Shown here piece by piece: positions 17,910-34,709 of a DNA stretch of 35,910 nt; positions within the stretch are counted from its first letter, which is position 1, and every line of letters begins with the position of its first letter. The translations under genes were made by a program, and so were the position numbers. The stretch covers positions 1 through 35,910 of the forward strand of contig JALWNT010000095.1 in NCBI GenBank assembly GCA_027080995.1, in the 5' to 3' direction. This DNA comes from Campylobacteraceae bacterium (GTDB lineage Bacteria > Campylobacterota > Campylobacteria > Campylobacterales > Sulfurovaceae). The notes under the pieces were generated by a model that saw only the letters and a list, made by a program, of their open reading frames with translations, was not told the origin of the DNA and did not search any database.

Positions 17910-20900
17910 ATGAAGAGTTTGAGTGCGCGCATATATGACGGTTTGTATCTTTTTCCAATAGTATTCTTTGGAAAAATTTCTTCATTAAAGAAGAAAATCA
18001 ATACATATAACTTGCTACCATTGGTAGCAGTATTGTTCTTTAGTGCTTCCATCAATTTGTATGCTGCTACATGCAATGGATGTGATTGCAGTCTTGATAC
18101 GTCGGCCAACGACAATCTTCCGGGTGTCGTCATACCGGGGCTTGACGGAGCCACCGGTAATGTGACCAAATGCATCAGCGGTTCTTCTGAAAACGATGAC
18201 AAAGATTATTATTATTTCAGGGTTGAAACAGACGGTATTTTAAAGATTGATACTTCATCTCCCAATGGACACAACTATTATTTGAAAGTTGGGAAGACTC
18301 CTGGAGGAGATGAATATTATGAAGGTCTACTCCCCGCTCAAAATCATGAAGTCCCAACCGTTGTTTTAAAAGCCGGAGATCTTGTCTATATCTATGTCAA
18401 AGATTTTCTCTTAGATGATCCCGGTGAATATCAGATCCAGTTTGATTTTCAAGCGATGAAAGTTGTCGAGGATGCCGATGATCTTTGTTATGAAGAGCCT
18501 CCGAAACATAGTGGCATGTTTTGTATAGATATGGGTTTTTGTAAAGGAGGAATAGGGTGCAAGACTACTTACACATTAAAAAACATTGGGGATAGCCCTT
18601 TGACCGGGGCACAAGCGATTTATGATGAAACTGGATTGGGAGGGACGTTTGCGAGTGACTGCGGCGTTGATCCCTCCGGAAGTTGTCAGCAGGAGAGCGG
18701 TATAGATATGGGACCGTTTGTGGGAGTGTTGGGCAAAACGACTGTTTTTGATATCGATGGACCGATACAACCGGATCAGAGCTCGGACATATGGACGGTG
18801 GCAATGTTCAGCGGAAGTTGTTTTAACGGAAGCAATCTTTACGGAAGTTATATCAAAGACGGAGAGTACCATCGAGGAAAACTCAAAGCATGTAATGGAG
18901 GATACCGCCCCTTTACCCTGAGACATCGGGAAGTTTTACGCGGAAATATGCTGACGATCGGCAATACCATCCTGGTAGCTCCAGAGGATCAAAGCAGCAA
19001 TGTATGTAAATCGTATAGAGATGGCCCCTATCTAAATGATACGGAGTCTTCGAATACCGATTACGAGCTTTGTGCTTATTACGACGACAAAAATGTAGAT
19101 TTCCCGACAACGACGGCACAGTTGCCTTTGCCAAATGGGAAGGATGTGGAAATTGTTTGGGCCGGACTCTATTGGCAGGCTTTAGTGGATGATAGCTATG
19201 ATGTTTCACAGATGCAGATTAAAATCAAACACAGTGGTGAAGAGGTCTATTATCCGGTCAAGTATGATCAATTAGATTCGCTGAAGGACGTCGGAGCAAA
19301 AGGATACATAAGCTATTCGGCGTTTGCCGATGTGACAAATCTTTTTAAAGAAAACGGTTGGAAAGCCGGGAATATCACAGTAGGAGATATTCCAGTTGTA
19401 GAAGGAAAAGGTTTTGGTGGATTGGGTACATACGGTGCCTGGACTCTGGTCGTCATTTATAAAAAGGATGATGAGAAATTTCGGGCGATCAATGTTTACG
19501 ACGGATGGCAACAGGTAGATAGTGATCATCCGGAAGTCGATATTCCGATTTCAAACTTCATCACCCCCAAGACAACGCCGATCTCAGCGCAAACCTCTGT
19601 ATTTACCGCGGAAGGAGATAAATACATTTGGCATGATTATCTGAAAGCCAAACCCTCCAAAAAAAGTACATGGACTCTGCTCTCACATACCACGGATCAA
19701 ACATTTTATTCGGCGATCGTCTCTCCTGTCAGTTTCAATCGATCTCCGGACCCTGTCAACAATCAAGGGATAGACATTCAGACGTTCGATCTTGGGACGA
19801 GCGGTTTGAATATCATCGAACCGCAAGAGACGAAAATAGATTTCAAATTCGGGTCGGATCAGGATAGGTATTGGCCGTCGATGATCTCCTTTAGTGCGGA
19901 ATTGAGAGTCCCGAATCTCTGTTATGACTATGCTTATAAGCAGGATGGAAGATATTTCACTGAAGAAAATAACGGATCTCAGGACCCCCGCTTGAAAGGA
20001 CAGCTTTTTTCTCTGGACCCTATCGACATGTCTTTGTATATCAAAAACAGGGAAGAGTCGGATCTGGTCCTCAAAAACATAGAGATCAATGTCAGCGACA
20101 TCGATACGCAGCAAGCCACCTATATTCAGGATTCTGCGAAATACATCCCGCCGGGGGCCGTCAAAGAAGAGACGCCCTCCAACGTTTCATCGAGTGATTC
20201 ATTCGTTGCAGCGGATATCGGAGGCCTGGGAAGCAAAGAGGCTCTATACTTCTATTATCAATTGAAGCCGAAAGTTTCTTCTGTTGATATGCCGATCAAT
20301 GCGGCATTGGCTTACGATATGATCATCACTCTCCCGGATGGCAGTGGAACGCTTACGTTCCACTATCCCAAAGAGGAGCTCAACGCCAGAATTCCTTTTT
20401 GTGCGAAGGGTGGTTTCCAATACAATCCCGTCTATGGGAATTTCAACGTCGAAGAGATGGGCCTGGGGGCTTACAATCTCTTTACGCAAGTTTCCAAACG
20501 TATCGATGATTTTGAGATCAAAGCCTATCAGGATGACGGAACGGGAAATTACGATACACCGCTCAATCATTTGAGTACGATTGTTGCGGTGGAAGTGATC
20601 GATATGGGGGCTTTCCATGAAACGTCAACCAACTGTGAAGAACCGATCAACACACTCACCCCCCGTGTCTGGATGATCTTTGATGATACGGATTCGGTTC
20701 CACTGAACAAGGAGACTATCCAAGCGGCAATAGATGGCGGTATGACATCCGATCAGATGATCAATACTCCTTTTTTTCTGGCAGAAGCGAGGGATTACTT
20801 TACCGAGGTGAGGAGAAATGCTGCCTTTAGAGTCAGTTATAGTTCAGCGAATGACGGGTCATTATTGACATTTACCAAACTCCAGAACGGAAAATACAAG

Positions 20901-22775
20901 CCAAACAATTTTCCCGATTATGGAACTCAAAATTGCAATGAAGCCTTTTCGCAGACCCATCAGGGTGCCAAAGTGAGTGACTATTGCCATACAAACGGAA
21001 TGAACGCGCAGGAGTTGGCCGAATGTATGGAGTGCATCTATGGAAGCAATCTTCATTATGTCTGCTCTCGTGACAATTTTGCCATTCGCCCCAAAGCAAT
21101 CAAAGTTTCCCTAACCGACGACAATACATCGACGATAAGAGAGGATTTTGCCAACAACTTCTCCAATGGTCCCGGCAAATCTACAGGTATCAATCTCATT
21201 TCCGGATATCCCTACCGATTTGATATCAACGCGACTGACTATATGGACAAAGGACCGGTGAAAGGTTATGTGCAGAGATTTGACAGTACGGATCCTCTGA
21301 AGAGGGCTTATATGCAGTGGAGCCCCAAGAACGGAAGAGACGTAAGCGGCTGTAACGCGCCGGATGACAGAAACATGACTTTTTCTTTGGTGAACGGTAC
21401 CAATACGAATCTCAATCCTTTGAATACATGGGGGGATAGACACGATACACTCAATAATGTGGGAGAGTACGCCTTTGGGGTGGTGGATGAAGAGTGGACG
21501 AGATATGACTGGGAGAGCAATCTCACGGCTCATCACAATCATTCCCATTTCTATACCTCTGCGGATTGTATCAGACATTCCAACAAAATTCCCAAAGGAT
21601 TCGATGAAAGAGTAGGGTGTGAAACAAACAGTACATTCGGATCTTACAAGTTGATTCAGATTCGTAGTTATCCCGCACGATATGATGTTTCAGGCTTGAA
21701 AAGCGGAGCACGTCCTGCCAACATCACTTCCGATACGTTCGTCTATATGAATACGATGGATATAAGCGCTTATCCGAATGTGAGCAAAGACGAGAACATG
21801 TCCTACAACATTCAGGGGATTTTCCGAGCAGTGGGAGATGACAACAAAACATTGAGCAATTTTGTCAATGGTTGTTATGCCGATGACACCAATATGACTT
21901 TGAAGTTTGAACCGATTGTTTTAGATGAGAATACAACGGGTATGTATTATGATTTGTATGATTATAATCTTTCGAATTTCATACGCGAAGATTATAAACT
22001 TCCTGATAGTAACACAGCTACCCAAAGTAAAAATAGATTCGCTAAACTTCTTAAAGGGAGTATTAATATGGATTTAGGATACAACTATATTCGTACCTAT
22101 AATACTGTAGTTAATCCGATCTATATCCATTTCAGCGAGTTGAACATCACCGACGCCGAAAAACCCGCCACACTTTATGCGCACGGTGTAAACAATTATA
22201 AAATCCAAGGCTCGTATAAATTAGATCAAAATATCACGTTTATTTATGGTAGAGCAAAACCAAATCGATTTATCTATGATGATGTAAATGAAAGTAATAT
22301 TACGACACCGATCTCTTTGGTCGCTTACTGTGATTTGGGGTTGAATGGATGTCTAAATCGAGGTTTGGACGTCATCGCCAGCGGTATGTTGAAAGATGCC
22401 GAGAGTGAGGAGAGTTCCTGGTGGGTAGTACAGAAACATAACCAGGATGCCGGGGACGGGAATGTACTGTTGAAATCAACATCGAACGGGAAAGTTTCTC
22501 CGGCAGCTCCTACACCGATCGATCCGACGGGGGGAATTGACAGCAATATTCTGGTAAGTCATACGGTAGCGATTCTTCCCGATGTCGTCGATATTAATCT
22601 TGCGACGGGTACCGATCGATGGCTAATTTACAACAAAAACGGTGATACGATACCGTCTCCTTTTTATCGGGTACGTTTTATCGGAGCCGGAAGCGGATGG
22701 ACAGGATACGGAAAGACAGGTCATGTGACGGGGGGAAGCTTGAACTCCAAAAAAACCAGACGTTTGGAGTGGTAA
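17910..22775 (+). CDS. giant secreted Cys- and N-sequon-rich surface protein (candidate pilus-tip adhesin)
   Basis: 1621 residues. An unusually long signal region (1-53) has a hydrophobic stretch at 13-20, a KKK at 27-29 and a second core NLLPLVAVLFFSASINLYAA; cleavage is likely near residue 53. The mature protein opens with a Cys cluster (Cys55, 58, 60). A pre-peptidase-C-like beta domain lies about 95-180 and a CARDB/DUF11-like stretch (TYTLKNIGDSPLTGAQ) near 220. A WAGLYWQ...AWTLVVIY domain spans about 410-520, resembling surface-repeat domains. Residues 1072-1463 carry 14 Asp/Glu-X-Asn-X-Ser/Thr sequons. The end is GSGWTGYGKTGHVTGG followed by RRLEW. No VWA MIDAS or PilY1 propeller seen. 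AAGGAGGAG precedes the ATG. It stands where pilY1 stands in pilin cassettes. Function is inferred. Confidence 0.85.
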   Translation: MKSLSARIYDGLYLFPIVFFGKISSLKKKINTYNLLPLVAVLFFSASINLYAATCNGCDCSLDTSANDNLPGVVIPGLDGATGNVTKCISGSSENDDKDYYYFRVETDGILKIDTSSPNGHNYYLKVGKTPGGDEYYEGLLPAQNHEVPTVVLKAGDLVYIYVKDFLLDDPGEYQIQFDFQAMKVVEDADDLCYEEPPKHSGMFCIDMGFCKGGIGCKTTYTLKNIGDSPLTGAQAIYDETGLGGTFASDCGVDPSGSCQQESGIDMGPFVGVLGKTTVFDIDGPIQPDQSSDIWTVAMFSGSCFNGSNLYGSYIKDGEYHRGKLKACNGGYRPFTLRHREVLRGNMLTIGNTILVAPEDQSSNVCKSYRDGPYLNDTESSNTDYELCAYYDDKNVDFPTTTAQLPLPNGKDVEIVWAGLYWQALVDDSYDVSQMQIKIKHSGEEVYYPVKYDQLDSLKDVGAKGYISYSAFADVTNLFKENGWKAGNITVGDIPVVEGKGFGGLGTYGAWTLVVIYKKDDEKFRAINVYDGWQQVDSDHPEVDIPISNFITPKTTPISAQTSVFTAEGDKYIWHDYLKAKPSKKSTWTLLSHTTDQTFYSAIVSPVSFNRSPDPVNNQGIDIQTFDLGTSGLNIIEPQETKIDFKFGSDQDRYWPSMISFSAELRVPNLCYDYAYKQDGRYFTEENNGSQDPRLKGQLFSLDPIDMSLYIKNREESDLVLKNIEINVSDIDTQQATYIQDSAKYIPPGAVKEETPSNVSSSDSFVAADIGGLGSKEALYFYYQLKPKVSSVDMPINAALAYDMIITLPDGSGTLTFHYPKEELNARIPFCAKGGFQYNPVYGNFNVEEMGLGAYNLFTQVSKRIDDFEIKAYQDDGTGNYDTPLNHLSTIVAVEVIDMGAFHETSTNCEEPINTLTPRVWMIFDDTDSVPLNKETIQAAIDGGMTSDQMINTPFFLAEARDYFTEVRRNAAFRVSYSSANDGSLLTFTKLQNGKYKPNNFPDYGTQNCNEAFSQTHQGAKVSDYCHTNGMNAQELAECMECIYGSNLHYVCSRDNFAIRPKAIKVSLTDDNTSTIREDFANNFSNGPGKSTGINLISGYPYRFDINATDYMDKGPVKGYVQRFDSTDPLKRAYMQWSPKNGRDVSGCNAPDDRNMTFSLVNGTNTNLNPLNTWGDRHDTLNNVGEYAFGVVDEEWTRYDWESNLTAHHNHSHFYTSADCIRHSNKIPKGFDERVGCETNSTFGSYKLIQIRSYPARYDVSGLKSGARPANITSDTFVYMNTMDISAYPNVSKDENMSYNIQGIFRAVGDDNKTLSNFVNGCYADDTNMTLKFEPIVLDENTTGMYYDLYDYNLSNFIREDYKLPDSNTATQSKNRFAKLLKGSINMDLGYNYIRTYNTVVNPIYIHFSELNITDAEKPATLYAHGVNNYKIQGSYKLDQNITFIYGRAKPNRFIYDDVNESNITTPISLVAYCDLGLNGCLNRGLDVIASGMLKDAESEESSWWVVQKHNQDAGDGNVLLKSTSNGKVSPAAPTPIDPTGGIDSNILVSHTVAILPDVVDINLATGTDRWLIYNKNGDTIPSPFYRVRFIGAGSGWTGYGKTGHVTGGSLNSKKTRRLEW

Positions 22776-23462
22776 ATGTTTCTGAAAGATAAAAGGCAGG
22801 GGGTTGCATTGATCGAATTGATCTTCGCGATTGTCGTCATTGCGATCGCGTTGATGTCCGCTCCCACGCTGATGGCGACGTCGGCAAAAAGTGCGTCGGT
22901 GGCTCTACAGCAAGAAGGTATCAACGAAGCGGCTTCACGTATCAGTATGATTTTGACTTACGCCTGGGACCAGAACGATACAATGAATACTTGCATTCCT
23001 CCTGTTCTTCATGTAAATCAAGGTGACAGTGAGTTGGAGGAGGCGAGTGCCAATCGACGGATCGGCGTACCTCTTCAGACCAATTCGCGTACCTTTCTTT
23101 GCGATGGCAAAGAGTACAATGCTTCAGCAATCGCCGTGGACGGGATGGACGATATCGATGATTTTATAGGGGATGATACACTTCAATTCGTCAATGTGGG
23201 ATCGGGAGGAGTTGATTACATTGAAAAAACCACGGTTAATATGCATACAAACGTGGCGTATATCGGTGATGCGGCAAACTACGATTCTACAATCATAACT
23301 TATTCACCTCCTGCGACGGTGAGCGGAACCAGTAACATCAAGCATATCACTGTCACGTTGACCAGTACAAGCGGGAAGTCGGCACTGAACAAAAAAATTG
23401 TTTTGAAAGCTTTCAGTTGCAATGTCGGCGGATATAAATACGTTCACCAGGTCTTGCAATGA
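22776..23462 (+). CDS. minor pilin, PilV-like (prepilin N terminus)
   Basis: 228 residues. Leader MFLKDKRQG is followed by the cleavage motif G/VALIELIFAIVVIAIALM, with Gly at -1 and Glu at +5 (Glu14), a normal type IV prepilin start. The C-terminal globular part contains several Cys and two extended N-glycosylation sequons (Asp-Gln-Asn-Asp-Thr and Glu-Tyr-Asn-Ala-Ser). It begins at the base after the stop of the giant protein and ends overlapping the next gene as ATGA. Order and N-terminus suggest the PilV/GspI slot of a minor-pilin set. Confidence 0.85.
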   Translation: MFLKDKRQGVALIELIFAIVVIAIALMSAPTLMATSAKSASVALQQEGINEAASRISMILTYAWDQNDTMNTCIPPVLHVNQGDSELEEASANRRIGVPLQTNSRTFLCDGKEYNASAIAVDGMDDIDDFIGDDTLQFVNVGSGGVDYIEKTTVNMHTNVAYIGDAANYDSTIITYSPPATVSGTSNIKHITVTLTSTSGKSALNKKIVLKAFSCNVGGYKYVHQVLQ

Positions 23463-24307
23463 TAAAAAAGAGAGTGAGATATAAGAAAGCGTTTTCGTTG
23501 ATAGAATTAATCTTTGTCATTGTTGTGTTGGGGATTGTCGCTTCGCTCGGCTCTCAAGTGATTGCCAAAGTATATGAAAGTTATGTACTGCAAAGAGGAA
23601 TGTATCGAGCGACAATGAAAACCGAGTTGGCGCTGGAGCAGATCGGAAACCGACTGCGTTACGCCATCCCGGGAACGGTCGGTGCGAGAGCAAACATTTC
23701 TAGCACATGGGAAGAGATCAGCACCGTGACAGCCCCCAACGACAAAGTACTTCAATGGGTGGCTTATGACGGAGACAGCTTCGAGGCGATTCCTCAGAGT
23801 GGACGGACCCCCGGATGGAGCGGTTTTTGTGATCTAAATACCAGTAGCAAAAGCACACTTTCGAGTCCTGGATCGAAATTTTCATTGGCAAATAAAATCA
23901 TAAAAAACCTCTCAGGCAAAACTAAAGATATCAATAATTCCGTTGTCTATTTTATGGGGGTTTACGATGAAAGTACCGGTTTGCCGAGATATTATGGAGT
24001 TTATGATTCCGATGATACCCATTTGTCTTTCACTGATTCGAAAGAGAAAAATGCTACAGAGCGGTACAAACTAGCCTGGAGCTCTTATGCTCTTTCTGTG
24101 GAAAGCGGAGATCTCTATCTGTATTACAACTTCTCTCCTAATCCCGGAGCTTCACTCAATAATGCAAAAAAAAGTTTGCTTTTGAAAAATGTCAGCAACT
24201 TCAGGTTTAAAGGGGGAGAAGGATCAATCCGTGTCAAAATTTGTCTGCAGGAGCCTATCGCCGCGGATGCAAATGTGACGGCATGCAAAGAGAAAGTGAT
24301 TTTTTGA
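23459..24307 (+). CDS. minor pilin, PilW/GspJ-like
   Basis: 282 residues, the longest pilin of the set, as PilW and GspJ usually are. The prepilin motif is A/FSLIELIFVIVVLGIVASLG with Ala instead of Gly at -1 (Ala11) and Glu at +5 (Glu16). Ala at -1 is tolerated by some prepilin peptidases but is less usual. Sequons: four of eight Asn-X-Ser/Thr sites have Asp or Glu at -2 (for example Glu-Lys-Asn-Ala-Thr and Asp-Ala-Asn-Val-Thr). It overlaps the upstream gene by 4 nt and the downstream gene by 1 nt (TGATG), so translation is coupled. Confidence 0.83.
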   Translation: MIKKRVRYKKAFSLIELIFVIVVLGIVASLGSQVIAKVYESYVLQRGMYRATMKTELALEQIGNRLRYAIPGTVGARANISSTWEEISTVTAPNDKVLQWVAYDGDSFEAIPQSGRTPGWSGFCDLNTSSKSTLSSPGSKFSLANKIIKNLSGKTKDINNSVVYFMGVYDESTGLPRYYGVYDSDDTHLSFTDSKEKNATERYKLAWSSYALSVESGDLYLYYNFSPNPGASLNNAKKSLLLKNVSNFRFKGGEGSIRVKICLQEPIAADANVTACKEKVIF

Positions 24308-24780
24308 TGAAACTATTGATAAAACGACGTGGATTTTCGATGATCACTGCGATAGTCGTCATCGTTCTGATGGCGACGGTAGCGGTCTTTGTACTTAGTC
24401 TCAGTGGAAAAGTTGTCAAAAGTTCGACCGCACAATATCAGCATGAACAAGCAGTCCTGTATGCAAAAAGTTATACGGAGTATGCGATTCTTGCTGTAAC
24501 GGGCAACAACCGTACCGATAAATGTCTGCAAACAATCAAGGGGAGTATCGGGAGCTCTCCGAGCAATGGAAAGGGATACCGGATTCGCACGCATATAGCG
24601 TATATCGGACCGGCATCGGTCGTGGGGAATTGTGCATCCACGCGAATTTTGAGCACTGATGTGAATACTACGAGTACTCCTTTGACGATTATTATCGATG
24701 CATATGTCGATTATAAGGATCCGGACAATCCATCGGGTCCTTGGTTTACAGTGCATCGTCGTACAATTCAAAAGATATAA
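24307..24780 (+). CDS. minor pilin lacking Glu5, PilX/GspK-like (candidate tip initiator)
   Basis: 157 residues from the ATG at 24307, which shares one base with the preceding TGA. A longer in-frame start at 24241 would lie inside the upstream gene and lacks a leader. The prepilin motif is G/FSMITAIVVIVLMATVAVFVLSL: Gly at -1 but Thr, not Glu, at +5 (Thr14). Loss of Glu5 is the hallmark of GspK-type tip pseudopilins, which have no subunit ahead of them. The middle part (EQAVLYAKSYTEYAILAV) fits PilX. One Asp-Val-Asn-Thr-Thr sequon lies in the C-terminal half. Confidence 0.8.
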   Translation: MKLLIKRRGFSMITAIVVIVLMATVAVFVLSLSGKVVKSSTAQYQHEQAVLYAKSYTEYAILAVTGNNRTDKCLQTIKGSIGSSPSNGKGYRIRTHIAYIGPASVVGNCASTRILSTDVNTTSTPLTIIIDAYVDYKDPDNPSGPWFTVHRRTIQKI

Positions 24781-24783
24781 ATA

Positions 24784-25446
24784 ATGGACTTTAGAATGAG
24801 ACGAGCATTTACAATGATTGAAGTTGTGATGGTAATGATTGTATTGGCAATCCTGGCATCGTTTGCAATCCCAAGAATGGAAAGGGATCTAAAGCAGGAG
24901 GCTGCAGACAATGTCCTCTCCGCGATACGATACACTCAGCATTTGGCACAGATGGATGACAAACACAAATTTGACAATCCCAAGTGGCAACAGAGGTTCT
25001 GGCGTATCTATTTCGGGACTTGTGACGATGGAAAATTCTATGTTATCGGAAGCGATGACAATATGGATTCAGCCAACAATGGTCGAGTCGATTTTAATGA
25101 GAGTGCGTTGGATCCCGCCAACGGTAAACATATCTGGGCCCATGACGGTGGAAGTTGCGAAGGAAATCATCAATTGAGTGAATTGAGCCCCAACATTTTT
25201 CTTGGGAAAAAATATGGAGTTACCAATATTGCCGAAAGTGGAGGTTGTGGCCTAAGTTACCTCGGTTTCGATCATCTCGGGCGCCCTTACAGCAGTGCAT
25301 TTACCGACTCAAATGAGTCAGACAATAAAGGATATATGACATCTCAATGTAAATTGGTTTTTACGCTTTCTGACGGCTCAAGTTTCCAGATCAATATCGA
25401 GCCAGAAACCGGTTATGCTTATATCAGTGATGAACTTGGATCTTGA
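24784..25446 (+). CDS. minor pilin, FimT/FimU/GspH-like
   Basis: 220 residues. The prepilin motif is A/FTMIEVVMVMIVLAILASFAIPRM with Ala at -1 (Ala8) and Glu at +5 (Glu13). The GspH/FimT pattern LAILASFAIPRMERDLKQEAADNVLSAIRY follows. A second ATG at 24796 would give a shorter leader, MRRA; neither has a strong ribosome-binding site, so the start is uncertain by four codons. The C-terminal domain has Cys residues and two extended sequons (Asp-Phe-Asn-Glu-Ser and Asp-Ser-Asn-Glu-Ser). It starts 3 nt after the previous stop and is the last gene of the operon. Confidence 0.85.
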   Translation: MDFRMRRAFTMIEVVMVMIVLAILASFAIPRMERDLKQEAADNVLSAIRYTQHLAQMDDKHKFDNPKWQQRFWRIYFGTCDDGKFYVIGSDDNMDSANNGRVDFNESALDPANGKHIWAHDGGSCEGNHQLSELSPNIFLGKKYGVTNIAESGGCGLSYLGFDHLGRPYSSAFTDSNESDNKGYMTSQCKLVFTLSDGSSFQINIEPETGYAYISDELGS

Positions 25447-25519: not shown

Positions 25520-26812
25520 GTGAATGATCCTCATGTGGAAGAGTTGATGGAGACGCTGGAGCGGGAAAACCTCTTTCTCACCGGGGCGGCGGGCACGGGC
25601 AAAAGCTATCTGAGCAACGCCCTGATCGAGCGGTACCGGGAAGAGGGGAGGACGGTGATTCCTCTGGGGTCCACGGGAGTCAGCGCCGTCAACATCGGGG
25701 GGTTGACGTTGCACAGCTTCTTTGCGCTGGGGATCTGCCGGAATTTCGACGAACTGAGGGAACAGGACCGCCGCAACCGCAAGCGTCTGGCGGATCTCAA
25801 GCGGATCCTCAAAGCGACGGATCTCATCGTCGTCGACGAAGTGAGTATGGTCGGGGTCGAGACGATGGAGATGATCCGCTATCGGCTGGAGAGCCTGGAT
25901 TTCCGGGGGCGCATTATGTTCGTCGGGGACTTCTATCAGCTGCCTCCCATCGTCCGACGCAGCGAAGGGGGGAACCTCTTCGGGGAGGCACTCTACGCTT
26001 TCGAGAGCGGAGCCTGGGGGGCTTTCGCCCCGCGGACGGTGGAGCTGCGCACCGTCCACCGCAGCCGGGACCCTGAGTTTATCGACATCCTGGCCCGGAT
26101 TCGCCGGGGGGAACGAAGCCCGGAGCTGGTGGATTATCTGCTGGGGCTTTGCAACCACGATGAGGTTTACGCGCTGGAGCCGACCTTTCTCTTCGGGCGC
26201 AACCAGGAGGTGGATCGGATGAACCGCGAAAGCCTCGACGCTCTGGCTGGAGAAGAGCGTCTGCTCGCCGCCGAAGTCGAGCTACGGCAGCGGGTCCACG
26301 AAAAGCGCCTGGAGAGTTGGAAAAAGCTCCTGCCCGTGCACGAAGAGCTGCGCCTGAAGGTGGGGGCTCCGGTGCTCTTTACCGTCAACAAATGGGGCAG
26401 TTACGCCAACGGAGAGCGGGGGATCGTCCGCGCGATCGAGGAGGAGTTTATCCTCGTGGAGAAAGAGGAGGGCTTTGTGAGGGTGGAGCGCCACGACTTC
26501 GATCTGCACGAGCTCGACGTTGCCGCGGACGGCTCCATTGAGATGGCGGCGCCGGCGACGCTGCGGCAGTACCCGCTCAAGCTCGCCTGGGCGGTGACTA
26601 TCCACAAATCCCAGGGGATGAGCCTCGATCGCTTGGTTTGCAACGTCGATCATATTTTCGCTCCGAGCCAGTTTTACGTGGCGATTTCGCGTGCCACCGA
26701 CCCGAAGCGGCTCAAGATCGATTTCAACCGGGGCAATCTGGAGCACTATCTGCAACGGGCGATTCGAATCGATGAGAGGGTGGAGCGTTTTTACGCTTCG
26801 TTGGAAGCGTAA
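25520..26812 (+). CDS. Pif1/RecD2-like superfamily 1B DNA helicase
   Basis: 430 residues with a GTG start at 25520 (AAAGGTAG 5 nt upstream); the first in-frame ATG is nine codons later. Motifs: Walker A TGAAGTGKS at 21-29, GSTGVSAVNIGGLTLHSFF (Ia), LIVVDEVSMVG (Walker B), FVGDFYQLPP (III), a Pif1-like linker, then AWAVTIHKSQGMSLD (V) and FYVAISRATDP (VI). All ATPase motifs are intact. Pif1-type helicases unwind DNA 5'-3' and help with replication past structures. The gene has the higher-GC codon use of the chromosome, in contrast to the pilin operon ending 74 bp upstream. Confidence 0.93.
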   Translation: MNDPHVEELMETLERENLFLTGAAGTGKSYLSNALIERYREEGRTVIPLGSTGVSAVNIGGLTLHSFFALGICRNFDELREQDRRNRKRLADLKRILKATDLIVVDEVSMVGVETMEMIRYRLESLDFRGRIMFVGDFYQLPPIVRRSEGGNLFGEALYAFESGAWGAFAPRTVELRTVHRSRDPEFIDILARIRRGERSPELVDYLLGLCNHDEVYALEPTFLFGRNQEVDRMNRESLDALAGEERLLAAEVELRQRVHEKRLESWKKLLPVHEELRLKVGAPVLFTVNKWGSYANGERGIVRAIEEEFILVEKEEGFVRVERHDFDLHELDVAADGSIEMAAPATLRQYPLKLAWAVTIHKSQGMSLDRLVCNVDHIFAPSQFYVAISRATDPKRLKIDFNRGNLEHYLQRAIRIDERVERFYASLEA

Positions 26813-31557: not shown

Positions 31558-32874
31558 ATGGCTCAACGAGCAATACGCGAATATGACGGAAAGCAGCTCT
31601 TTGCCAAGCATTGGAACGAATATTTTGACGGATTCCACTACCCCTTCAAGTCGGTCCTGGTCACCAGTGCCGACGAACTGCGCCAAAAAGCCAAAGAACA
31701 CGGATTCGAGTGGCTTAATCAGGAGCCTCTGGTTGTCAAGCCCGATATGCTCTTCGGAAAGCGCGGGAAGAATGATTTGGTTCTTTTCAAAGTCAACAAG
31801 CCCGGTGATGTGACCCTGGAAGATGCCGCCAAATGGATCGAAGAGAAGCAGGCCCACGACGTCACGCTGCTGAGCGGCCAGCACGGTCACCTGACTCACT
31901 TCATCGTTGAGCCCTTTACTCCCCACACTCAGGATCAGGAGTATTATATTGCTGCGACAACTGTCGGCGAGGATGATGTCCTCTATATGTCGGCCGAAGG
32001 AGGTATGGAGGTTGAAGAGGGATGGGATGAGAAGGTTAACGAAGTTCGCATTCCCATTAACATGAATGAAGCCGACATCGAAAAAGCAATCCGGGCCAAC
32101 GTTCCCGAGGATATTCCCGCCGAAAACCGTGAAGCCTTCGTCTCCTTTGCGATCCAATTCTTCAAGTTCTTCCGGGATATGCATTTTGCTTATCTGGAGA
32201 TCAACCCGCTGGTTCTCATCGGCACCGATGCCCACATTCTCGACCTGGTGGCCCGTCTCGATGATACCGCCGGCTTCATGATGAAGGACAAATGGGGCGA
32301 CATCGAGTTCCCCACCGCTTTCGGGATGGAGGATCAGTCTCCCGAGGAGAAAGCGATCGCCGAGGCCGACAGCAAGTCGGGCGCTTCGCTCAAACTGACG
32401 ATTCTCAATCCTCAGGGACGCATCTGGACGATGGTGGCCGGAGGAGGCGCCTCAGTCGTCTATGCCGACACCATCGCCGATATGGCCGGAGTCAAGGATT
32501 TGGCGAACTACGGAGAGTACTCCGGAGGTCCTACGACCGGTGAGACCGAGTTCTATGCCGAGACGATCTTCGATCTGATGACCCGCTATCCCGATCCGCG
32601 AGGCAAGATCCTCATCATCGGCGGCGCCATTGCCAACTTCACCGACGTGGCCAAGACCTTCACCGGCATCATCAACGCCCTGGAAAAGTGGGCGCCCAAG
32701 CTCAAAGAGAACAACACCAAGATCTACGTACGCCGGGGCGGCCCCAACTATGAAAAGGGTCTGCAGGATATGAAAGAGGCGGCGGAGCGTCTGGGACTGG
32801 AGATCCATGTTTACGGCCCTGAGACCCACGTAACCGACATTGTCCGCATGGCACTTGAAGACGAGAAGAAGTAA
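31558..32874 (+). CDS. aclB: ATP-citrate lyase, small (beta) subunit
   Basis: 438 residues. It carries the ATP-grasp, SucC-like part of bacterial ATP-citrate lyase: MAQRAIREYDGKQLFAKHW start, KPDMLFGKRGKNDLV (nucleotide region), FFKFFRDMHFAYLEINPLVL and the C-terminal PTTGETEFYAETIFDLMTRYPDPRGKIL. With AclA it cleaves citrate to acetyl-CoA and oxaloacetate using ATP and CoA, the key step of the reductive TCA cycle in Campylobacterota autotrophs. It is followed by aclA after 17 nt with its own GGGAGGAG site. Codon use is GC-rich, as expected of a highly expressed core gene. Confidence 0.95.
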   Translation: MAQRAIREYDGKQLFAKHWNEYFDGFHYPFKSVLVTSADELRQKAKEHGFEWLNQEPLVVKPDMLFGKRGKNDLVLFKVNKPGDVTLEDAAKWIEEKQAHDVTLLSGQHGHLTHFIVEPFTPHTQDQEYYIAATTVGEDDVLYMSAEGGMEVEEGWDEKVNEVRIPINMNEADIEKAIRANVPEDIPAENREAFVSFAIQFFKFFRDMHFAYLEINPLVLIGTDAHILDLVARLDDTAGFMMKDKWGDIEFPTAFGMEDQSPEEKAIAEADSKSGASLKLTILNPQGRIWTMVAGGGASVVYADTIADMAGVKDLANYGEYSGGPTTGETEFYAETIFDLMTRYPDPRGKILIIGGAIANFTDVAKTFTGIINALEKWAPKLKENNTKIYVRRGGPNYEKGLQDMKEAAERLGLEIHVYGPETHVTDIVRMALEDEKK

Positions 32875-32891
32875 GGGAGGAGAGGAATATT

Positions 32892-34709
32892 ATGAGCAGA
32901 CTTTTTACACGGGATACCCAGGCGATTTTCTGGAACAACAACAAGAGTGCGATCCAGCGGATGCTGGACTATGACTATGTGATCAATCGGGAGACGCCTT
33001 CCGTCGCCGCGATCGTGGCGCCGACCAGCAGTGCCAAGTTCGAGAAGTTCTTCTGGGGTCCCGACGAGATCATGATCGATGTCTTCCGCAGCACCAAGGA
33101 GGCGGTGGAGGCCCATCCCAATGCGGATGTTCTGCTGAACTTCGCCTCCTTCCGGACGGCCTATGACGTGACCATGGAAGCGATTGCCATCCCCAATCAA
33201 TTCCGGGTGATCATGGTCACCGCCGAAGGGATCCCCGAGCGGTTGGCACGGACCATGAACCAGGCGGCCAGAGATGCCGGCGTTACCGTCATCGGACCCG
33301 CGACCGTCGGGGCCATCGCTCCCGGTGCCTTCAAGATTGCCAATATCGGCGGAACCATCGAGAACATCATCAAGTCCAAGCTTCACCGTGCCGGAAGTGC
33401 CGGTTTGGTGACCCGCTCCGGCGGTCTGTTTAACGAGCTTTGTAACATCATCGCCCTCAACGCCGACGGTATCGCCGAGGGGGTGGCGATCGGTGGCGAC
33501 CGCTTCGTCGGTTCGGTCTTTATCGACAATATGCTCCGCATGGAGAGCAACCCGGATGTGAAATATATGATCCTCCTGGGTGAGGTCGGAGGAACCGAAG
33601 AGTACAAGGTAATCGAAGCGGTCAAGTCGGGCAAAATCACCAAGCCGGTCATCGCCTGGTGTATCGGAACCATCGCCAAGCATTTCAGCAGCGGCGTCCA
33701 GTTTGGCCATGCGGGGGCCTCCGCCAATGCCGATCGTGAAACAGCCGAGGCCAAAAACCGCGCGATGGCCGAAGCGGGAATCCATGTCCCCGAGAGCTTC
33801 AACGATCTGCCCCGTGTCATCAACGAGGTCTATACCAAGCTCTACAACGAAGGGGTGATCTTGGAGATCGAGGAGCCCGAGATCCGTACCATTCCGAAGG
33901 TCCGTCGGCCCAAGAACTTCATCTGTACCATCAGTGACGACCGGGGCGAAGAGGCTACCTATGCAGGCTATCCCATCAGCTCCGTAGCCACTCCCGATAC
34001 CGGCAAGACCATCGGGGACGTCGTCAGCCTGCTTTGGTTCAAGAAGGTCTATCCCCGCTGGGCGGTCGATTTCATCGAGACCGTCATCAAGACCGTCGCA
34101 GATCACGGCCCCGCCGTCTCCGGTGCCCACAACGCCAAAGTAACCGCCCGTGCCGGCAAGAGCGTCGTGGAGTCCCTCGTAACCGGACTGCTCACCATCG
34201 GTCCCCGCTTCGGCGGTGCCATCGACGGAGCGGCCAAATACTTCAAGTATGCCCATGACAACGACATGACTCCCGCCGAGTTCCTGGCGTATATGAAAAA
34301 AGAAGGGATTCCCATTCCCGGTATCGGTCACCGGATCAAGTCTCTGCGTAATCCCGACCTGCGGGTCGAAGGGCTCAAGAAGTTCGCCGCGGAGCATTTC
34401 CCCGAAACGCCGCTGCTGGATTATGCCCTGACCGTCGAGCAGCTGACCACCTCCAAAAAGGACAACCTGATCCTCAACGTGGACGGGACCATCGGAATTC
34501 TGATGGTGGATATGTGGCGCTCTCTGGGCTATCATGAAGAGGAGATCGACGAGTTCATCGAGTCGGGAACCCTCAACGCCTTCTTCATCCTGGGACGGAC
34601 CATCGGCTTCATCGGCCATGTCCTGGACGAGAAGCGCTTGGCGATGCCCATGTACCGCCACCCCTGGGACGACATCCTCTACGACGTCCACAAAGCCGAA
34701 GAGCTTTAA
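32892..34709 (+). CDS. aclA: ATP-citrate lyase, large (alpha) subunit
   Basis: 605 residues. The N-terminal SucD-like CoA-ligase part (about 1-330) contains GPATVGAIAPGAFKIANIGG, VTRSGGLFNELCNIIALNADG and the phosphohistidine loop FGHAGASA with His273. The C-terminal citrate-synthase-like part (about 350-605) contains GPRFGGAIDGAAKYFK, GIPIPGIGHRIKSLRNPD and LNVDGTIGILMVDM. All expected catalytic regions are intact. The two genes together form the usual two-subunit heteromeric enzyme. An intrinsic terminator follows. Confidence 0.95.
   Translation: MSRLFTRDTQAIFWNNNKSAIQRMLDYDYVINRETPSVAAIVAPTSSAKFEKFFWGPDEIMIDVFRSTKEAVEAHPNADVLLNFASFRTAYDVTMEAIAIPNQFRVIMVTAEGIPERLARTMNQAARDAGVTVIGPATVGAIAPGAFKIANIGGTIENIIKSKLHRAGSAGLVTRSGGLFNELCNIIALNADGIAEGVAIGGDRFVGSVFIDNMLRMESNPDVKYMILLGEVGGTEEYKVIEAVKSGKITKPVIAWCIGTIAKHFSSGVQFGHAGASANADRETAEAKNRAMAEAGIHVPESFNDLPRVINEVYTKLYNEGVILEIEEPEIRTIPKVRRPKNFICTISDDRGEEATYAGYPISSVATPDTGKTIGDVVSLLWFKKVYPRWAVDFIETVIKTVADHGPAVSGAHNAKVTARAGKSVVESLVTGLLTIGPRFGGAIDGAAKYFKYAHDNDMTPAEFLAYMKKEGIPIPGIGHRIKSLRNPDLRVEGLKKFAAEHFPETPLLDYALTVEQLTTSKKDNLILNVDGTIGILMVDMWRSLGYHEEEIDEFIESGTLNAFFILGRTIGFIGHVLDEKRLAMPMYRHPWDDILYDVHKAEEL

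Follow-up and report, generated by a model that had tools for sequence, protein, structure and literature searches.

A PglB-type sequon cluster in the C-terminal domain of a giant, putative type IV pilus tip protein of Campylobacterota

The stretch of DNA analysed here (35,910 nucleotides, hereafter the window) encodes a giant, predicted exported protein whose C-terminal third is crowded with PglB-type N-glycosylation sequons (D/E-x-N-x-S/T). The question raised by this locus is whether such a density reflects selection for glycan attachment and, if so, in what kind of protein. The reason for protein N-glycosylation in bacteria is still debated, and its effects in Campylobacter jejuni are spread over dozens of proteins. 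In this study, we add to the sequon count the specificity of the motif, its conservation, the pilus operon in which the gene lies, a remote relation to MshQ and an imperfect comparison with genomes that have lost PglB.

Sequon content of the giant protein and motif controls

A direct count gave 27 N-X-S/T sites (X not P) across the 1621 residues. The original prediction had placed 19 of them, 14 with D or E at position -2, within the 392 residues 1072-1463, and the recount of this segment, which corresponds exactly to window positions 21123-22298, agreed in full: each of the 14 listed acid-type positions, from N1072 to N1463, was present with D or E at -2. Residues 1-1071 were also as described, with eight sites of which only N688 and N727 are of the acid type. 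The chance expectation had been put at under one site, and the permutation of the sequence that had been proposed as a check was consistent with this figure. Composition-preserving shuffles of residues 1040-1480 gave a mean of 0.78 PglB-type sites, with none of 20,000 trials reaching the 14 observed (maximum 6-7), and 6.9 N-X-S/T sites of all kinds vs. the 19 observed. Chance and Asn-rich composition, Asn making up 11.5% of the sequon-rich region, were ruled out by these shuffles as sources of the cluster. Elsewhere in the giant, PglB-type sites were at chance, with two vs. 1.03 expected in residues 1-1071 and none in residues 1464-1621. The coordinates of the features are provided in Table 1.

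Table 1. Features of the giant gene and of the pilin-like genes that follow it (window coordinates). Orthologue counts refer to the set of 19 family orthologues and to the broad set of 103.
Feature	Position	Strand	Remarks
Giant predicted-exported protein	17910..22775	+	1621 aa; first gene of operon; 16 PglB-type sequons
Conserved C-terminal domain, beta-rich, remote DUF6701/MshQ relative	21027..22772	+	residues 1040-1621; alignments A1/A2, AlphaFold2
Sequon cluster, 14 D/E-x-N-x-S/T	21123..22298	+	residues 1072-1463; shuffle expectation 0.78
Core sequon N1072	21123..21125	+	same column in 14/19 orthologues, 59/103 broad set
Core sequon N1107 (DINAT)	21228..21230	+	17/19 orthologues, 64/103; absent from PglB-less G500
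Core sequon N1155	21372..21374	+	11/19 orthologues, 28/103
Core sequon N1353	21966..21968	+	12/19 orthologues, 53/103
Core sequon N1412	22143..22145	+	12/19 orthologues, 41/103
Core sequon N1441	22230..22232	+	8/19 orthologues, 38/103
Minor pilin-like protein	22776..23462	+	228 aa; 2 sequons (N67, N115); N_methyl E=3e-4, just below cutoff
Minor pilin-like protein	23459..24307	+	282 aa; 4 sequons (N127, N159, N198, N272); N_methyl above cutoff
GspK-like minor pseudopilin	24307..24780	+	1 sequon; NF037980 T2SS_GspK E=2.8e-5, below curated cutoff
Minor pilin-like protein	24784..25446	+	220 aa; 2 sequons (N105, N177); N_methyl and TIGR02532 above cutoff

The excess concerns the PglB motif specifically. 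In the C-terminal domains of 20 orthologues, D/E-x-N-x-S/T was found 205 times vs. 21.4 expected, whereas the corresponding values were 161 vs. 183 for N-X-S/T without the acid, 23 vs. 21 for the mirror motif and 5 vs. 5.6 for D/E-x-Q-x-S/T. A nonredundant set of 74 orthologous domains, at most 60% identical, held 850 PglB-type sequons vs. 82 expected (10.4-fold), with DxNxD, DxDxD, [DE]xNx[AG], [DE]xNx[VIL] and [KR]xNx[ST] all below expectation. It must be noted that these domains are related and their counts are not independent, and therefore the controls within each set are what bears the argument. An acid was present at -2 in 59% of the N-X-S/T sites, compared with 7-11% at all other offsets and 9% at -2 of other Asn residues. 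In addition, D was preferred to E at -2 in the 74 domains (4.1 vs. 2.3 by composition), and Thr to Ser in the sequons (501:350). PglB itself shows both of these preferences.

The background of the genome itself was estimated from a 430-kb sample of stretches containing 388 ORFs, which were divided into classes by a crude hydrophobicity rule. Cytoplasmic-like proteins had 21 sequons vs. 27.7 expected, other signal or anchor proteins had 25 vs. 9.4 (about 2.7-fold), and the giant-pilin operon, sampled as four ORFs with 2351 aa, had 24 vs. 2.5, while the mirror motif was at expectation in the large protein classes. The enrichment extends to the pilin-like genes downstream of the giant, a point absent from the original prediction. 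Since exported proteins are enriched and cytoplasmic ones are not, the sequon signature follows export. The same rule assigned the giant to the cytoplasmic-like class, probably because its signal-type hydrophobic stretch, recognized by eye at about residues 30-53, starts so far from the N-terminus. The excess in exported proteins (sample L080-L099 and L141-L160) amounts to a genome-wide PglB footprint that is usable to call substrates.

PglB and the distribution of the sites among genomes

A search for pglB, also suggested in the original prediction, was carried out in the source genome (1.97 Mb, 99.95% complete). The only STT3-family protein encoded there is an intact PglB whose match to C. 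lari PglB (E=6e-125) spans the full length, with E values from 1e-121 to 1e-125 for 5ogl, 6gxc and 3rce. Its alignment to the C. lari enzyme retains the WWDYG motif and R331, the residue in contact with the -2 acid, and R331, WWDYG and MxxI are all retained in PglB from 20 related genomes. The gene lies in a pgl-type cluster, its neighbours encoding a flippase-like protein, GT1, GT9 and GT2 glycosyltransferases, a PglC-like sugar transferase and a DegT-type aminotransferase. The -2 rule is not fixed by R331 alone (PMC4894442), but selection for an acid at this position is evident from the substrate-side statistics. According to a secondary source, a study of OTases from deep-sea vents characterized the PglB of Sulfurovum lithotrophicum (Mills 2016, cited in PMC6025236).

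The giant was present in 120 of the 175 genomes of its own family, in 11 of 11 genera. Of the 397 genomes of the class that are near-complete, 181 carried the C-terminal domain. The named relatives that carry this domain include Sulfurovum, Nitratifractor, Sulfurimonas, Sulfuricurvum and Sulfurospirillum, together with other Campylobacterota MAGs. Conservation of the sites in orthologues had been named as a further check, and the pattern was found to be kept at about 25-57% identity. Nearly all of some 90 domain copies from named genomes were enriched, the clear exceptions being L172 (from genome G035) and L201 (from G500).

STT3 was found in 178 of the 181 near-complete genomes with the domain vs. 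99 of the 216 without it (Fisher 1e-35, a value that overstates the association because each trait is concentrated in certain parts of the phylogeny). For the three genomes with the domain and no STT3 (G036, G500 and G580), a recheck with the PglB sequence as query was also negative. G500, which is 99% complete, has a single sequon in the domain vs. 1.0 expected, and its core site DINAT is replaced by TVRAV; the near-complete G036 keeps five C-terminal sites vs. 0.76 expected. Conversely, the PglB-bearing G035 has two sites vs. 1.0, with no enrichment, and six further genomes without detected STT3 retain dense sites, gaps in these MAGs being possible. The dense pattern is thus kept in most relatives that make PglB, and its association with PglB, although strong, has exceptions. 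An unexplained exception is found in genus g13 of family f3 (L325, L326, L327, L342 and L356-L358), where STT3 is present and eight giants hold 12 sequons vs. 13.7 expected. Four of these giants had no sequon, but the idea that the f3 proteins avoid sequons was dropped in view of the pooled count.

Judging from the alignments, six core sites are widely common and the remaining ones turn over by lineage. Among the 19 family orthologues, the sequons at N1240, N1312, N1341, N1460 and N1463 were not shared. Mean conservation in the broad set did not differ between sequon Asn and other Asn (0.34 vs. 0.30, P=0.36), and hence site conservation is confined to the core. Of the refuting conditions named in the original prediction, the two open to computation, similar counts in shuffled sequences and absence of a PglB homologue, were not borne out. 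Together with the conservation in orthologues, this supports the initial proposal that the C-terminal third was selected as a putative glycan carrier.

Several relatives deserve a separate mention. A giant of 4078 aa (L333 779-13015, genome G296) has 96 PglB-type sequons, 14 DUF11 repeats and a LamG lectin domain, and another of 4061 aa (L334 667-12852, genome G283) has 67 PglB-type sequons. At eight loci (L165, L176, L197, L202, L216, L218, L219 and L223) at least two giants lie close by, which suggests tandem duplication of the putative tip protein. Campylobacterota-type giants were also found on contigs labelled 'Thermoproteota archaeon' (L164, JAADCY010000223.1) and 'Bacteroidia' (L226, RZYM01000064.1), which are probably misbinned.

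The pilin operon and the C-terminal domain

The giant gene is followed without a gap by a pilin-like gene, then by a second one with a 4-base overlap, by an overlapping GspK-like gene and by a fourth pilin-like gene. The listed ORF of the GspK-like gene begins at 24241, and the ATG at 24307, which overlaps the preceding stop, was taken as its start. Pilin-motif genes lie downstream of the giant at 25 of the 26 loci with room downstream, L075 being the exception. Elsewhere in the genome, the T4P core is represented by PilO, a secretin, an MshEN-type ATPase and T2SSF. As for the rest of the window, a PIF1-like helicase with a UvrD-type C-terminus (25520-26812) comes directly after the pilin operon, and two genes at 31558-34709, with succinyl-CoA ligase-like and citryl-CoA lyase/citrate synthase-like domains, are consistent with ATP citrate lyase subunits and with a reverse TCA cycle.

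The C-terminal domain was modelled by AlphaFold2, with good confidence, as beta-rich (pLDDT 81.8, pTM 0.79), and about half of the sequon Asn fall in predicted beta-strands. No PDB counterpart of this domain was found by sequence, and the best global fold comparison reached a TM of only 0.20. The middle region of the giant showed weak resemblances to beta-sandwich adhesins and pilins of solved structure, with query TM of at most 0.18. A Pfam/NCBIfam search with the 1621-aa giant gave no match. Direct membership of DUF6701 (PF20419), presumably the Pfam family of MshQ, was consequently discarded for the window protein, although one orthologue matched this family at 0.004. Membership of the PilY1 family was likewise discarded, since the window protein had no PF05567 beta-propeller match; the genome search for PF05567 was run with no positive control. 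The relative L361 matches PF20419 with E=8.1e-23, and alignment A2 of the window family matches L361 with E=5.9e-39 over 438 columns, that is, most of the domain. Through this intermediate, the C-terminal domain is homologous to DUF6701 as a remote relative.

In relatives, the same domain is preceded by LamG, Calx-beta, Big_9, cadherin-like, DUF11, weak PA14 or beta-helix modules, a variety that is to be expected of adhesins whose heads are exchangeable. The operon and the DUF6701 link sharpen the earlier designation of the giant as a surface protein to that of a probable type IV pilus tip-type protein.

Proposed role and comparison with known systems

The explanation that we favour, with a probability of roughly three in four, is that the giant is a hyper-N-glycosylated, MshQ-like type IV pilus tip adhesin in which glycans on the C-terminal domain stabilize it. 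Observed here are the sites with their motif-specific enrichment and conservation, the operon, the intact PglB with its pgl-type cluster and the T4P core of the genome; the location at the tip, by analogy, the occupancy of the sites and the stabilizing role are inferred. The giant would be exported by Sec, and PglB would add N-glycans in the periplasm to many of the C-terminal D/E-x-N-x-S/T sites and also to the minor pilins. It may then assemble with the four minor pilins as a priming or tip complex and be displayed, with a role like that of Vibrio cholerae MshQ or PilY1. In PilY1, the C-terminal domain is shaft-proximal and the N-terminal domain is at the tip (PMC7541494), and by this analogy the glycosylated domain would lie nearest the pilus shaft. 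The glycan coat could serve to maintain the solubility and stability of this exposed multidomain protein, and to protect it from proteases, both in the course of export and once it is at the tip. Stability and protease resistance are favoured as the benefit, since part of the sites are fixed and, outside these, it is the density that is maintained.

The glycans of a PglB-glycosylated tip protein might instead serve mainly to shield the cell from phages or predators that use pili or to act as a decoy for them, or else as adhesion ligands. Pili are common phage receptors, and the lineage-specific turnover of most sites at maintained density fits selection for coverage, but the conserved core (N1107, N1072 and N1353) also points to a structural role that is fixed, and we regard this alternative as possible although somewhat unlikely. 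That the giant, bearing true PglB targets, is no pilus tip adhesin and instead serves a type II secretion-like machine with a pseudopilus, as its substrate or as an accessory, would agree with the GspK-like gene in the operon, with the components common to T4P and T2SS and with a second T2SSF gene in the genome; this is improbable given the DUF6701/MshQ link, the adhesin-type modules in relatives, and the PilO and MshEN-type ATPase among the core machinery found. Finally, an origin of the motif in structure or composition with no glycosylation, through calcium loops or alternating polar residues in D/N/S/T-rich beta-strands, where -2, 0 and +2 face alike, could draw on the predicted strands and the Asn content of the region, but is hardly credible, both readings being largely refuted by the motif controls, with mirror and calcium-type motifs unenriched, an acid excess restricted to -2 of N-X-S/T and absent from other Asn, and a signature that recurs in unrelated exported proteins and is missing from cytoplasmic ones.

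The giant belongs to a widespread protein family where selection for PglB sites is so strong that it shows in sequence alone, and genomes with and without PglB offer a natural series of site gain and loss, imperfect as an experiment. A full-text search found no literature linking PglB N-glycosylation to type IV pili in Campylobacterota. The present reading would connect the tips of type IV pili with N-glycosylation in bacteria and provide a single protein for testing the role of the glycan. A more doubtful extension is that, in free-living Campylobacterota, the tip adhesin complex might be the main PglB client and its dedicated, densely glycosylated stalk domain might, by requiring glycans, help to retain the pgl pathway.

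With regard to known systems, the sequon type and the enzyme family are identical to those of the C. jejuni PglB N-glycoproteins. Most of the latter carry one or two sites, unlike the window protein, with its 14 sites in 392 residues and no match in the named libraries. The glycoproteins reported in C. jejuni number 53 (PMC6478998). Like the PilY1/minor pilin tip-priming complex of Myxococcus and Pseudomonas, the locus combines a large protein with several minor pilins; unlike PilY1, the giant lacks the PF05567 beta-propeller. To our knowledge, no N-glycosylation of PilY1 is known. MshQ is the putative MSHA pilus adhesin of V. cholerae, and fewer MSHA pili are present on the surface when mshQ is lost (PMC7096442). 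Within the literature searched, a PglB-sequon-dense C-terminal domain is not described for MshQ, and the window protein differs from it in having no direct DUF6701 match. Like MshQ, the giant is large, predicted to be exported and encoded with minor pilins, and its C-terminal domain is related to DUF6701 through the intermediate L361.
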